Shown piece by piece: positions 1,110 through 63,649 of a stretch of 64,000 nt of DNA. This DNA is from Acidithrix ferrooxidans (GTDB taxonomy: Bacteria; Actinomycetota; Acidimicrobiia; Acidimicrobiales; Acidimicrobiaceae): contig NZ_JXYS01000004.1 in assembly GCF_000949295.1 (NCBI RefSeq), positions 1 through 64,000 of the forward strand, in the 5' to 3' direction. Under the pieces are notes generated by a model that was not told where the DNA came from, made no database searches, and saw only the letters and a program-made list of their open reading frames with translations. The translations under genes were made by a program, and so were the position numbers. Every line of letters begins with the position of its first letter. The stretch's first letter is position 1.

Positions 1110-1111
1110 CT

Positions 1112-1182
1112 AAAAGGTGCTCCTTGAACTGGTTGTTTTTTGACTATTACAACCTAAAGTTTACCAGTTCAGAGCACCTTTT
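1112..1182 (-). promoter_or_regulatory. Hairpin over the IS1380 transposase RBS
   Basis: A long inverted repeat directly upstream of the IS1380-type start codon. The arm at 1163-1182 (ACCAGTTCAGAGCACCTTTT) is complementary to 1112-1133 apart from two extra bases. Read on the minus strand, the second arm contains the Shine-Dalgarno AAGGAG just before ATG 1109. Folding of a read-through transcript would hide the ribosome binding site, a control known from other insertion sequences. The element end is probably near 1200-1230 ('cggtggatccaggg'), but the opposite end is lost. Confidence 0.6.
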
Positions 1183-1230
1183 CTATGCCAAAATCAAAGT
1201 CGATCGGCTAAATTTTCGGTGGATCCAGGG

Positions 1231-21400: not shown

Positions 21401-21607
21401 ATGACATCACTTGAACTTGAATCAAAGATCTTCAGAATGGGCTCAGCGCTTGGCTGTGTTACCCTGGAAGGAGGCGAAACTCTTGCACCCTGCGAGCTAG
21501 TTTCTGTAAGTGCTGGAAAGCATGGAACACTTTGGGTATCCAATCTGGGCGAAGACATCTTCGTCGAAGTTGCCAAGGTAAGATCCATATCGCCAATTGC
21601 GATATAA
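21401..21607 (+). CDS. Small conserved-looking protein of unknown function
   Basis: A 68-residue protein with no recognised domain. The start ATG 21401 has a strong ribosome binding site (GGAGG at 21391-21395), which is the main reason to believe it. The composition is normal for a soluble protein, with alternating short hydrophobic stretches ('GCVTLEGGETLAPCELVSVS', 'GTLWVSNLGEDIFVEVAKV') suggesting a small beta-rich fold. It is divergent from amt and shares its upstream region. An IS1595-type end starts 10 bases after the stop, so the original downstream context has been lost. Confidence 0.55.
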   Translation: MTSLELESKIFRMGSALGCVTLEGGETLAPCELVSVSAGKHGTLWVSNLGEDIFVEVAKVRSISPIAI

Positions 21608-21617
21608 CAAAAGGCTT

Positions 21618-22229
21618 CATACTTATCAAGTTTCGTAAGCAAGAGCCATTTTGGAGTCAGATTCGCGAAGTAGCGGATGGGGAGACGCAAACACACATGT
21701 ATTGAGAAGTCGCTCTACCAAGGACATTTCAAAGCATACTTATCAAGTTTCGTAAGCAAGAGCCATTTTGGAATCAGATTCGCGGAGTAGCGGATGTGGA
21801 GACGCAAACACACATGTATTGAGAAGTCGCTCTACCAAGGACATTTCAAAGTGCCTTCGGTTGAATCGGTATGCGAATTCCTCGAGGTAAAGTTGCTTAT
21901 GTTCCTCACGTCCGTGGTATGTTCCGTCGATAAATTTCTTGGAGTTTTCAATTTAGGATCTTGAGCCATTTGAATGTTACATGTGCTTGTTCGTCTTTGG
22001 ATAGAGTGAACCCGTGCGCTAGTCCAAGGTCTTTCAGCACATACCCCGTAACTTGGGTTACCATCACTTATCAGCTTGGTGTCGGAATCTAAACGTCTCA
22101 CAAAAACATCTTTGGGTGATTTAGCAGTGGTATCTTTGATTACTTCCATGAAGCAATGAGTAGGAGCACTATTGCTAATCGATACTCCAATTAGGACATT
22201 GGTTTGTTTTGTTCCCTTTCCTCTTTAGC
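21618..22229. mobile_element. Truncated IS1595-type element with nested second left end
   Basis: Two left ends of the same element follow each other: one from 21618 and another from 21735, both starting CATACTTATCAAGTTTCG. The first runs only about 117 bases; the second continues to about 22229, where similarity to the full-length copies at 58585 and 62554 stops. The second end begins exactly after 'ggacatttcaaag', so either one copy inserted into another or the end was duplicated. The right end is missing. The minus-strand coding potential is the C-terminal part of the broken transposase described for the full copies. Confidence 0.85.
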
Positions 22230-57633: not shown

Positions 57634-57971
57634 GAATCAATCCTCCGCTATCACAGTCGACCCTCTTACCTAAAGGTCCACCGCAAAGTTTAGGACTTCC
57701 ACCATGAAAACAATTCAACTCCAAAAGTCAATCTCTTGGACTCAGAGGCGTTAGAGGAGAAAATATAAGTGTGACGACATCTAACCACCCAGGGGGAACT
57801 ACCGATACGTATCGGATAAACAAAATCACCTAGGGCTAGATAAAGAGTCTTACCGCGTATGAAATCGAGTACTCCACCCCGGTAGAAACAGAAGAGCCAA
57901 CAAAACGGCCAGGGGTCAATGGGAAAACGAATTGTGGAGCCAACAGTAAACAAAGTCGAGCTCCATTTTGG
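57634..57971. other. Intergenic between ychF and tRNA-Gly
   Basis: About 340 bases. A 112-codon minus-strand ORF (57690-58028) runs across the tRNA gene and is not real. Nothing else was recognised. Confidence 0.5.
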
Positions 57972-58042
<71 letters not shown>

Positions 58043-58116
58043 AATGCGAAACACCATCTTAGCCGAACTATCCCATAGCCCCGACACATCATCGTCTATA
58101 ATTCTTCGATTCAAAA

Positions 58117-58410
58117 GTGTGACATCCTCCCCGTCCTTATGGACGGGGCTTCCTAAGCTGCTTAGGCAACTTTAGGCGTGGTGGTGCACTTAACTGGGTC
58201 GCTGTGGCTGTGTCTTGGTAGACGTGGCATGCGATGTCCCTTTGTGCTCTGTGACACCAAGCCCTGCGGCAGTTAATTTTGGCCGCATTCACATCTGCGT
58301 TGTTCTAGAACTAGGTTCCATACATAGCGAGCATCGAAGGAGTGACGAACAAGAACGGGCAGTTCCTGTTCTTGCGAGTACAAGGCCTCACGAATACTGA
58401 TACCTGTATT
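58117..58410 (-). pseudogene. Collapsed TnpB gene with terminal hairpin (IS200/IS605-type)
   Basis: On the minus strand the segment about 58405-58290 encodes a TnpB-like N-terminus: 'EALYSQEQELPVLVRHSFDA' followed by 'RYVWNLVLEQR'. Directly after it, in another frame, lies a TnpB C-terminal tail 'NADVNAAKIN' (about 58290-58260). The middle of the gene, including the RuvC catalytic core, is gone. At 58129-58148 a perfect hairpin CCCCGTCC-TTAT-GGACGGGG with GGATGTCAC beyond it matches the right-end structure seen at many TnpB elements, the region that forms the 3' end of the guide (omega) RNA. No intact tnpB or tnpA is nearby. Confidence 0.6.
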
Positions 58411-58584
58411 ATGTATTATGCGCCGAGGGTGTGGCGGTCTTATTTTGGGAGCGCAATTAATGGTCGCTCGAGGCTGTCCTTAAAGGCGGGATTTGCGCTC
58501 TTATTCGATCAAAATTGTCATTTGAAGACATTAATCTAACACATCCGCCAGCAACCAAACAATTAAGTCTTGCACAAAAGTAAA

Positions 58585-59670
58585 CATACTTATCAAGTTT
58601 CGTAAGCAAGAGCCATTTTGGAGTCAGATTCGCGGAGTAGCGGATGTGGAGACGCAAACACACATGTATTGAGAAGTCGCTCTACCAAGGACATTTCAAA
58701 GTGCCTTGCGTTGAATCGGTATGCGAATTCCTCGAGGTAAAGTTGCTTATGTTCCTCATCTCCGTGGTATGTTCCGTCGATAAATTTCTTGCAGTTTCCA
58801 ATTTAGGATCTTGAGCCATTTGAATGTTACATGTGCTTGTTCGTCTTTGGATAGAGTGAACCAGTGCGCTAGTCCAAGGTCTTTCAGCACATACCCCGTA
58901 ACTTGGGTTACCATCACTTATCAGCTTGGTATTAGAATCTCAACGTCTCACAAAAACATCTTTGGGTGATTTAGCAGTGGTATCTTTGATTACTTCCATG
59001 AAGCAATGAGTAGGAGCACCATTGCTAATCGATATTCAAATTAGGAGATTGGTTTGGGTCGTTGCTTTTCCTCTTTAGTCTTCACCATGGCTCTCACCAC
59101 CTAAAAAGAACTCATCTACTCAGGCGTTTTCTCCAAGTTCGTATAAACCATTTCGGTCAGCCATTGCGCTCAGCCATTACGCTCAGCCGTTGCTTCCCAT
59201 AGCTTATTTAGCATCAACCAGCCAGTCGAATAAGAAACTTGAACGAATTTAGCAAGGGCTCTAATGGCTAGGGGGTAGTAGCTGAAAGACCACGCCTGTC
59301 GTTGGACAATAGATAGATAGCGGAGAACCACTTGGATAAAGAGATATGACTTCGATGAAAGATAGTTCCGGAGGTAACGCTTGTTTGGCGGTGACAAGAT
59401 TTACATTGAAAAAGTGGAGCTCAAGATGCTGCATTTCTTGAAATGATTTGGCCTTACTAAAGTAAATTGATCGAAGTTACACTTTGGGCATCTAAATCCC
59501 TCATAGCATAAGCAATTTGATCAAATGATCTTCACATGCTTCCTCTGAAGCGAAGCGTACCATAAAGCCTGAGATATCTGCCAAGAAGCTTTATCGAACA
59601 TCTGTTCTACTAAAGATTAGCTCCAATCTGGTCTCGGTGGAGGCGAAACTTACGAAAGTTGATAAGTATG
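58585..59670. mobile_element. IS1595-type element, full length, copy 1
   Basis: A 1086-bp element bounded by inverted repeats starting CATACTTATCAAG at the left and ending CTTGATAAGTATG-like at the right (one mismatch, AAAGTTG, in the right repeat). It is flanked on both sides by AAAGTAAA, a perfect 8-bp target duplication (58577-58584 and 59671-59678). It is nearly identical to the copy at 62554-63641. Confidence 0.92.
58593..59563 (-). pseudogene. Broken IS1595-type transposase, copy 1
   Basis: The expected transposase runs from about ATG 59563. Pieces are readable in different frames: 'MVRFASEEACEDHL', the zinc-ribbon 'CYEGFRCPKCNFDQFTL', 'RQTSVTSGTIFHRSHISLSK' with 'WFSAIYLLSNDRRG', then 'YPLAIRALAKFVQVSYSTGW' with 'LMLNKL', and finally the ISXO2-like catalytic part with 'LISDGNPSYGV'. 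Frameshifts separate these parts, including one after 'RRGLSA' that is shared with the other full copy. The enzyme cannot be made as one chain without recoding. Confidence 0.8.
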
Positions 59671-60436
59671 AAAGTAAAAGTCGGGATCTGCTGGTATTGG
59701 CAATAAGGCGACACCTAGGCCCTAAAGATAGAGGATCAGCCAATGCTCAAGGGCTCAAGGGCTCAAGGGCTCAAATCAACGAGCTATGAACAGGTCAGCG
59801 ATATTTCTACATTTTGGGTGAACTCTCACAAACTATCATTTACTTGAAAATGAACGCAATACGAGTGAGATCGTTGGCTCCATAGCAAGGGCTGGCAAAT
59901 CAACGCAATAGCCCCATAAATAACAATAGATATCCTATTCATGGGGCTATTGATACTTTGAAGCTCAAAAAATAAGCGACAATTTGCCTATTTAACGATC
60001 TCCAGAAACAAGAGAATTAGCCGACCATCTATAAAAAAAAAGGGGGGGGACTAGACGGAAACTTTTATCCACCTAACGGGCGGGAAATCAGACCTTGGCC
60101 AGACAACTCGAAGAGCAATCGTTTAATCTCGACTCCGAGAGGTATTTGAATTTTTCTGCAGCGTCGCAAATCCAATAGAGTCACAAGTCGATTCTCTATC
60201 AACATCGACCAACTACACGGATAAGACCCCGCGTAACAGCCGATGATAAATCTTCTATCGAAAAGATTACCCGAGTCCGAACAAATAAATTCGCTAACCA
60301 TAAATCTAGATAAGATTGCGAAGCGATAGTAAAAGGAAATAGCAGCAAGGATATCAACTTAGATTAAAAATGCGAGGCCCGTACTGATGGGCTCGAACAA
60401 TAACCTCTATCAAAACTCAGCATTCAAGTCAAATGG
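59671..60436. other. Intergenic with simple repeats and a long hairpin
   Basis: About 765 bases. It holds four near-perfect tandem copies of GCTCAAGG (59745-59776), a perfect 12-base inverted repeat CAATAGCCCCAT / ATGGGGCTATTG (59906-59952) with a smaller hairpin nested in its loop, and an A9G8 tract (60033-60049). No gene is supported; a 78-codon minus ORF (60065-60301) has no recognisable motif. Confidence 0.6.
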
Positions 60437-60508
60437 TCGGGGAGGGGGGATTTGAACCCCCGACCCCCTGGTCCCAAACCAGGTGCGCTGCCGCTGCGCC
60501 ACTCCCCG
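60437..60508 (-). tRNA. tRNA-Pro (UGG)
   Basis: A minus-strand cloverleaf with acceptor CGGGGAG/CTCCCCG, D arm GCGC-AGCGGCA-GCGC, anticodon arm CCTGG-TTTGGGA-CCAGG with anticodon TGG, and T arm GGGGG-TTCAAAT-CCCCC. The C1 start and A73 discriminator are typical of bacterial tRNA-Pro. CCA is not encoded. Confidence 0.95.
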
Positions 60509-62150: not shown

Positions 62151-62553
62151 ACACAGCCTTGCAGTTCGCCAAAATGCTCAAAATCTGAAGACTCCTACGT
62201 CAAAGAAATCCTCAACCATTAACACCTGCCCCCCTTTTTTTGAGTGAATATTAAAAGGGGGAGAACCAAAGCCGATCTTCGATGAATCAATTCCGATGAG
62301 TCGCACAATGCGGGACACTCCCTTATGAGGGTTTATCTCCTACGGCTGCTTAAAATCAAGTTGGTCCAGTACCAATCGCAGCCGTCCCAAACAGATGAGC
62401 AAATTTCCCCGGAGTGGTTGACTCACTTCCGTATCACACGAAAAACTACCGGATTCGCCAATGGACATCCGCGATAATGCCATCTTCACAAAAGCCTCTG
62501 CCTTGACTACAAGGGGTATCAACTTTCGTCTCTAGCAGGTACATATTTAATAA
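62151..62553. other. Intergenic with hairpin
   Basis: About 400 bases. A hairpin CCCCCTTTT / AAAAGGGGG (62230-62261) lies about 80 bases after the hydrolase stop but has no U-run on the plus strand. A 60-codon minus ORF (62340-62522) has no recognisable motif. The last eight bases form the left copy of the IS target duplication. Confidence 0.5.
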
Positions 62554-63641
62554 CATACTTATCAAGTTTCGTAAGCAAGAGCCATTTTGGAATCAGATTC
62601 GCGGAGTAGCGGATGGGGAGACGCAAACACACATGTATTGAGAAGTCGCTCGACCAATGACATTTCAAAGTGCCTTGCGTTGAATCGGTATGCGAATTCC
62701 TCGAGGCATAAGTTGCTTATGTTCCTCACGTCCGTGGTATGTTCCGTCGATAAATTTCTTGCAGTTCCCAATTTAGGATCTTGAGCCATTTGAATGTTAC
62801 ATGTGCTTGTTCGTCTTTGGATAGAGTGAACCCGTGCGCTAGTCCAAGGTCTTTCAGCACATACCCCGTAACTTGGGTTACCATCACTTATCAGCTTGGT
62901 GTCGGAATCTAAACGTCTCACAAAAACATCTTTGGGTGATTTAGCAGTGGTATCTTTGATTACTTCCATGAAGCAATGAGTAGGAGCACTATTGCTAATC
63001 GACACTCCAATTAGAACATTGGTTTGTTTTGTTCCCTTTCCTCTTTAGCCTTCGCCATGGCTCTCACCACCTAAAAAGAACTCATCTACTCAGGCGTTTC
63101 CTCCAAGTTTATATAAACCATCTCGGTCAGCCATTACGCTCAGCCATTACGCTCAGCCATTGCCTTAGGTAGCTTATTTAGCATCAACCAGCCAGTTGGA
63201 TAAGATACTTGAACGAATTTAGCAAGGGCTCTGATGGCTAGGGGGTAGTAGCTGAAAGACCACGCTTGTCGTTGGACAATAGATAGATAGCAGAAAACCA
63301 CTTGGATAAAGAGATATGGCTTCGATGGAAGATAGTCCCGGAGGTAACGCTAGTTTGACGTCGAAAAGATTTACATTGAAAAAGTGGAGCTCGAGATGCT
63401 GCATTTCTTGAAATGATTTGCCCTTACTAAAGTAAATTGATCGAAGTTACACTTTGAGCATCTTAATCCCTCATAGCAATAGCAATTTGATCAAATGATC
63501 TTCACATGCTTCCTCTGAAGCGAAGCGTACCATAAAGCCTGAGAGATCCACCATGCCACCTTAGTAGAACATCTGTTCTACTAAGGATTAGCTCCAATCT
63601 GGTCTCGGTGAAGGCGAAACTTACGAAACTTGATAAGTATG
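62554..63641. mobile_element. IS1595-type element, full length, copy 2
   Basis: A 1088-bp element with perfect 22-bp terminal inverted repeats (62554-62575 and 63620-63641, beginning CATACTTATCAAGTTTCG). It is flanked by the perfect 8-bp target duplication TTTAATAA (62546-62553 and 63642-63649). Intact repeats and duplication show it moved as a complete unit. Confidence 0.95.
62562..63533 (-). pseudogene. Broken IS1595-type transposase, copy 2
   Basis: Same layout as copy 1: start about ATG 63533 ('MVRFASEEACEDHL'), zinc-ribbon 'RCSKCNFDQFTL', 'RRQTSVTSGTIFHRSHIS' with 'LSKWFSAIYLLSNDKRG', then a frame change, 'LAIRALAKFVQVSYPTGW', another break near a duplicated 'AATGGCTGAGCGT' motif, and a 147-codon C-terminal frame (62562-63005) with 'KLISDGNPSYGV' and 'EFAYRFNARHFE', the end of ISXO2-type domains. 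At least three breaks exist. Confidence 0.82.
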
Positions 63642-63649
63642 TTTAATAA

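Follow-up and report, generated by a model that had tools for sequence, protein, structure and literature searches.

Here, we identify the minus strand of positions 58512–58119 in the window, i.e., the first 64,000 nt of contig NZ_JXYS01000004.1 of Acidithrix ferrooxidans, as a core-deleted TnpB-only (IS605/IS1341-type) element in which a left end (LE), the tnpB N-terminus, a join, the tnpB C-terminus, and a right end (RE) follow one another (Table 1). This element is very probably inert debris resembling palindrome-associated transposable elements (PATEs), IS605-type relics reduced to their termini that are known from Haloquadratum walsbyi (PMC3119063): its core was lost recently, the protein is gone, and its reRNA-like fold is inherited. 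We suggest that an element of this type first inserted between genes for tRNA-Pro and tRNA-Gly, directly 3' of TTGAT, that two AACAACGCA repeats within it then recombined or slipped so that about 1 kb of its core was lost and the N-terminal part of tnpB was joined to the C-terminus in a different frame, and that the remainder has drifted neutrally as a terminal-only, PATE-like relic. An earlier note had recognized a collapsed element at this place; the collapse stands while the proposed limits do not, since TTGAT and a decayed left hairpin have to be added and the right boundary lies at 58119.

Table 1. Features of the core-deleted element (window coordinates)
Feature	Position	Strand	Basis
TTGAT target/TAM pentamer, directly 5' of the element	58508–58512	−	Comparison with relatives; ISDra2 target/TAM
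Left-end subterminal hairpin, decayed, 4/8 pairs left	58472–58491	−	Aligned to CCCCGTCCGTAAGGGCGGGG of relatives; pairs counted
tnpB N-terminus remnant, 35 codons, start ATC	58297–58401	−	Profile match; alignment with 13 relatives
Deletion junction AACAACGCA, about 1 kb of core gone	58296–58304	−	Repeat present at both breakpoints in L087
Frameshifted coding remnant of the tnpB C-terminus (NADVNAAK region)	58257–58295	−	Alignments
Complete right end/reRNA-scaffold-like region	58119–58256	−	Covariance model R1; MFE fold
Second right-end hairpin, sequence variable among relatives	58152–58176	−	MFE fold; equivalents in L003, L051, and L087
Terminal hairpin CCCCGTCC-ATAA-GGACGGGG, 8/8 pairs	58129–58148	−	Sequence; family covariation
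16-nt flank, putative guide were RNA made	58103–58118	−	Position by ISDra2 analogy

Several lines of evidence support this identification. TnpB homology, subterminal hairpins (the left one decayed), and a short target, TTGAT, 3' of which the element lies, together mark the element, as read from its sequence, as IS200/IS605-type (TnpB-only, IS1341-like). TTGAT is also the target/TAM of ISDra2 (PMC8612924), and the left-end flank TTGATC is common to the relatives L054, L045, L051/L088, L087, and L090, with TTGAGC or TTGACC in other relatives. The peptides, the out-of-frame fusion, and the CCCCGTCC/GGACGGGG hairpin described in the earlier note were all found in the sequence, and its assignment of the N-terminus to TnpB is borne out by a profile of intact relatives, which matches 58294–58401 with 35.4 bits (E 1.5e-8, whole genome). 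Intact relatives match PF07282 and PF01385 above cut-off. Pfam itself was discarded as an identifier of the two short window peptides because its matches are too weak (E 0.079 for HTH_OrfB_IS605 alone on the short N-terminal peptide). The N-terminus starts with ATC where the relatives have ATG or GTG, the C-terminal NADVNAAK segment follows it in a different reading frame, and a second frameshift follows in the C-terminal piece ~25 nt past the junction. With start codon and frame lost, the window copy is predicted to make no TnpB.

Intact relatives carry one hairpin repeated at both element ends. In the window, the right end carries GGATGTCAC as well as the CCCCGTCC-ATAA-GGACGGGG hairpin, and this terminal hairpin covaries across the family. 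A covariance model of the family (R1), built from 14 non-collapsed copies, of which some are cut by contig ends and two (L003 and L045) have disrupted frames, matches the right end with 103.4 bits (E 5.8e-21 in the 4.02-Mb genome). The structural reading of the earlier note, a collapsed TnpB that has kept both ends and whose right-end hairpin is equivalent to that of an omega RNA or reRNA, is therefore correct, and neither of the two outcomes that the note had named as refuting it was observed. The 138-nt right-end scaffold is complete, and the region is long enough to accommodate a whole ISDra2-like reRNA of about 150 nt; as in OMEGA (TnpB-omegaRNA) systems, a structured RNA scaffold ends at the right end. 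Its minimum free energy (MFE) is −44.5 kcal/mol (z −3.16), and the architecture of a long interrupted stem, a middle hairpin, and a terminal hairpin is common to the window, L003, and L051. The other two collapsed copies in the genome lack the family fold (z about −1). Because the non-collapsed L045 also reaches a z of about −1 only, dead and working copies cannot be told apart by z alone. An Rfam search at the gathering threshold gave no match at the element.

The loss of the core left a signature at the junction. AACAACGCA is present exactly twice in the full-length relative L087, 986 bp apart and at both window breakpoints, and in a single copy at the window junction; random breakpoints would share at least 9 nt with a probability of about 0.0004. 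This nine-base evidence comes from L087 plus the identical C-side sequence in L046, with L087 standing in for the direct parent, and the more distant L003 shares only the shorter AACGC at the breakpoint. We infer that the window element collapsed by repeat-mediated core deletion, a route by which some Haloquadratum PATEs have been proposed to arise from IS605-type transposons (PMC3119063). The closest copy to the window, the sister copy C86 (83–87% identical), keeps N-terminal sequence that is absent from the window and lacks C-terminal sequence that is present there; the two deletions differ and, therefore, the collapses are independent. The window collapse is recent, because the differences in the N-terminus still favor third codon positions (6, 6, and 19 versus L045, much like 4, 5, and 13 in intact pairs), so that most of the divergence predates it.

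Selection has not visibly kept the right end, judging from these comparisons. L003 and L045 resemble the outgroups L047, L048, and L051 more closely than the window does, and the shortfall of the window is roughly equal in the N-terminus and the right end. As the dead N-terminus and the right end drift similarly and the collapse is recent, selection at the RNA level is not needed, and the right end would still fold like an reRNA because so little time has passed since the collapse. Selection on RNA structure was considered and rejected: against a matched null that puts as many random substitutions into paired columns as were seen, pair retention was not above chance (P 0.11–0.32, i.e., 11–32% of trials), and it was mildly high for some proxy ancestors when substitutions were spread over all positions (P 0.002–0.08 depending on the proxy), a contrast that takes in the period when the element was still active. 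Because its proxy ancestors are crude, the simulation is a weak test both for and against selection. A compensatory change from G-C to A-U is seen in one helix pair. Over 20 nt, the left-end hairpin has 8 changes versus 2 in the right-end hairpin (Fisher P 0.065), the latter being perfect and the former half lost; this asymmetry was dismissed as a sign of RNA selection, as it is reversed in C86, in which the left-end hairpin is intact and the right-end hairpin broken.

The genome, a 183-contig draft that is about 98% complete, has about 31 matches to the TnpB C-terminal domain from several subfamilies. Only four loci were assigned to the subfamily of the window, i.e., C37, the window itself (C4), C136, and C86, the last by DNA similarity with only 34 bits in the RNA model; matches of ≤31 bits to this model at other loci probably represent other TnpB subfamilies or chance. 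The window, C136, and C86 are core-deleted, each with a different internal structure and hence by independent collapses, whereas C37 has kept its full length but is interrupted by a single in-frame TAA. Thus, with the window frame broken and C37 interrupted, the intact TnpB nuclease of an OMEGA system was not found, and a profile search of the assembled genome (about 98% complete) detected no intact TnpB of the same subfamily. A partner might be encoded in the 2% of the genome that the assembly lacks, or a TnpB of another subfamily might recognize the RNA; the next closest TnpB, C49, is about 36% identical over the middle part. Full-length relatives with open frames are present in other genomes (L047/L083, L048/L085, and L051/L088), and the closest named full-length relatives belong to MAGs of Actinomycetes, Acidimicrobiales, or Acidimicrobiaceae. 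Separately, an in-frame, open, internally deleted TnpB lies at L195 467–972 (the place of L064; contig end in G024), in which the first 71 residues run directly into the zinc-finger/C-terminal part and most of RuvC is gone.

Judging from the flanking tRNA genes, the insertion is not conserved among the sampled members of the genus. In the window, the element sits between tRNA-Pro and tRNA-Gly (57969–60508), which are 2391 nt apart. In eight congener loci, the two genes are 29–59 nt apart without an insert, and three other congener loci have no tRNA-Pro within the 170 nt inspected. The congener spacers, although free of the insert, are too divergent for the exact joint to be read, and an IS1595 element shares the window spacer.

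The earlier note had left two readings side by side, inert debris and an RNA-only locus still producing a guide. The debris reading is supported by drift that resembles that of the dead N-terminus, by the lack of a found partner, and by the absence of the insert in congeners. In the RNA-only reading, the relic would still be transcribed and processed to an reRNA, and this would guide a protein from another locus, either a TnpB or a nuclease-dead TnpB-like one. We regard this as very unlikely, although the complete scaffold with the family fold speaks in its favor. Counting against debris are the lack of this fold in the other two collapsed copies, the compensatory pair, the perfect right-end hairpin next to a half-lost left one, and the mildly high unmatched pair retention. 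A frameshifted tldR locus in Oscillibacter has likewise been suggested as a source of gRNA in trans (PMC13418256). The ISDra2 guide corresponds to about 16 nt of flank (PMC8612924), and the TTGAT TAM plus 11 nt of the window flank, TTGATACTTTTGAATC, recur at C88 (L199 about 2671–2687; G000:C88:23170–23186) as the sole 16-nt exact TAM-adjacent match in the genome. Such a match is expected about 0.009 times under an order-5 Markov model, a figure for that 16-mer alone although several registers were tried. However, identity ends after 11 of the about 16 nt, and the closest start of a substantial gene is about 0.5 kb away; the match is probably due to chance and is a lead only. Against an RNA-only locus also stand the search for an intact TnpB of the same subfamily, which returned none, the sole full-length subfamily member found being interrupted by its TAA; a simple scan for sigma-70-type sites, which detected no promoter-like site for the element; the lack of any sign of constraint specific to the right end, which drifts like the N-terminus and retains pairs as the matched null does; and the insert-free spacer in the eight congener loci. 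Altae-Tran reportedly described standalone trans-acting omegaRNAs in 2021. It is highly improbable that the relic has been domesticated as a guide-RNA gene lacking a protein, with the C88 match as a real target of a TnpB-family protein acting in trans.

An active PATE or MITE, i.e., a non-autonomous element mobilized by a Y1 transposase acting in trans, is also very unlikely. In its favor, the element has both ends and TTGAT, at least two Y1 TnpA frames in the genome are full length and free of stops (C49 and C37), and homogeneous PATEs do multiply in Haloquadratum (PMC3119063). By contrast, the left hairpin is half lost, the three collapsed copies differ internally, and no second genome copy has the window junction; the latter is why we class the element as a PATE-type relic rather than an active PATE. 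An assembly artefact joining two TnpB fragments might be suspected in a draft of 183 contigs with many TnpB copies, yet the locus is internal to a 68.7-kb contig, the join falls within a repeat found at both places in L087, and the relic has private changes (start codon and frameshift); we consider such an artefact highly improbable.

An inert, core-deleted relic is an ordinary decay product of an already described kind. Like PATEs (PMC3119063), the window element has fused termini with subterminal palindromes, is too short for a transposase, encodes neither transposase nor TnpB, and has the mark of repeat-mediated core loss seen as the origin of some of them. Unlike PATEs, it retains the tnpB 5' end over about 105 nt, is a single copy with no spread seen, and derives from an actinobacterial TnpB subfamily. 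A PATE-like sequence in Halanaerobium hydrogeniformans (PMC7290912) similarly combines an LE hairpin with the final nucleotides of tnpB and an entire RE. With ISDra2 TnpB/reRNA (PMC8612924), the window shares the TTGAT left flank and an RNA-like region overlapping the tnpB 3' end and RE; however, a functional tnpB is absent, and the reRNA is putative. In the frameshifted Oscillibacter tldR locus (PMC13418256), too, the protein gene is broken and the RNA scaffold retained, but Oscillibacter has further tldR loci, whereas no intact cognate protein was found in the window genome. Core deletion in this actinobacterial subfamily can repeatedly yield protein-less elements, here with a full reRNA scaffold, and, therefore, orphan reRNA-like loci can come from ordinary decay. 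The relic provides a null model for scans for RNA-only guide loci, in which a retained fold is not by itself evidence of function.

Some further observations concern the surroundings. The genome is larger than those of the listed congeners (4.0 versus 1.9–2.8 Mb), and relics of TnpB and of Y1 transposases abound in it. The window tRNA spacer, which contains an element of the IS1595 family (from about 58582) in addition to the relic, is at least partly mobile-element debris. Window positions 58582–59670, 62552–63645, and 21607–22228 are copies of one IS1595/ISXO2-like element that are 93–96% identical and have a 26-bp terminal inverted match; the frame at 62562–63005 matches DDE_Tnp_IS1595 just below cut-off. 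Finally, window positions 1110–1228 match the Rfam sRNA Ms_IGR-7 with 45.6 bits against a gathering score of 45 bits.
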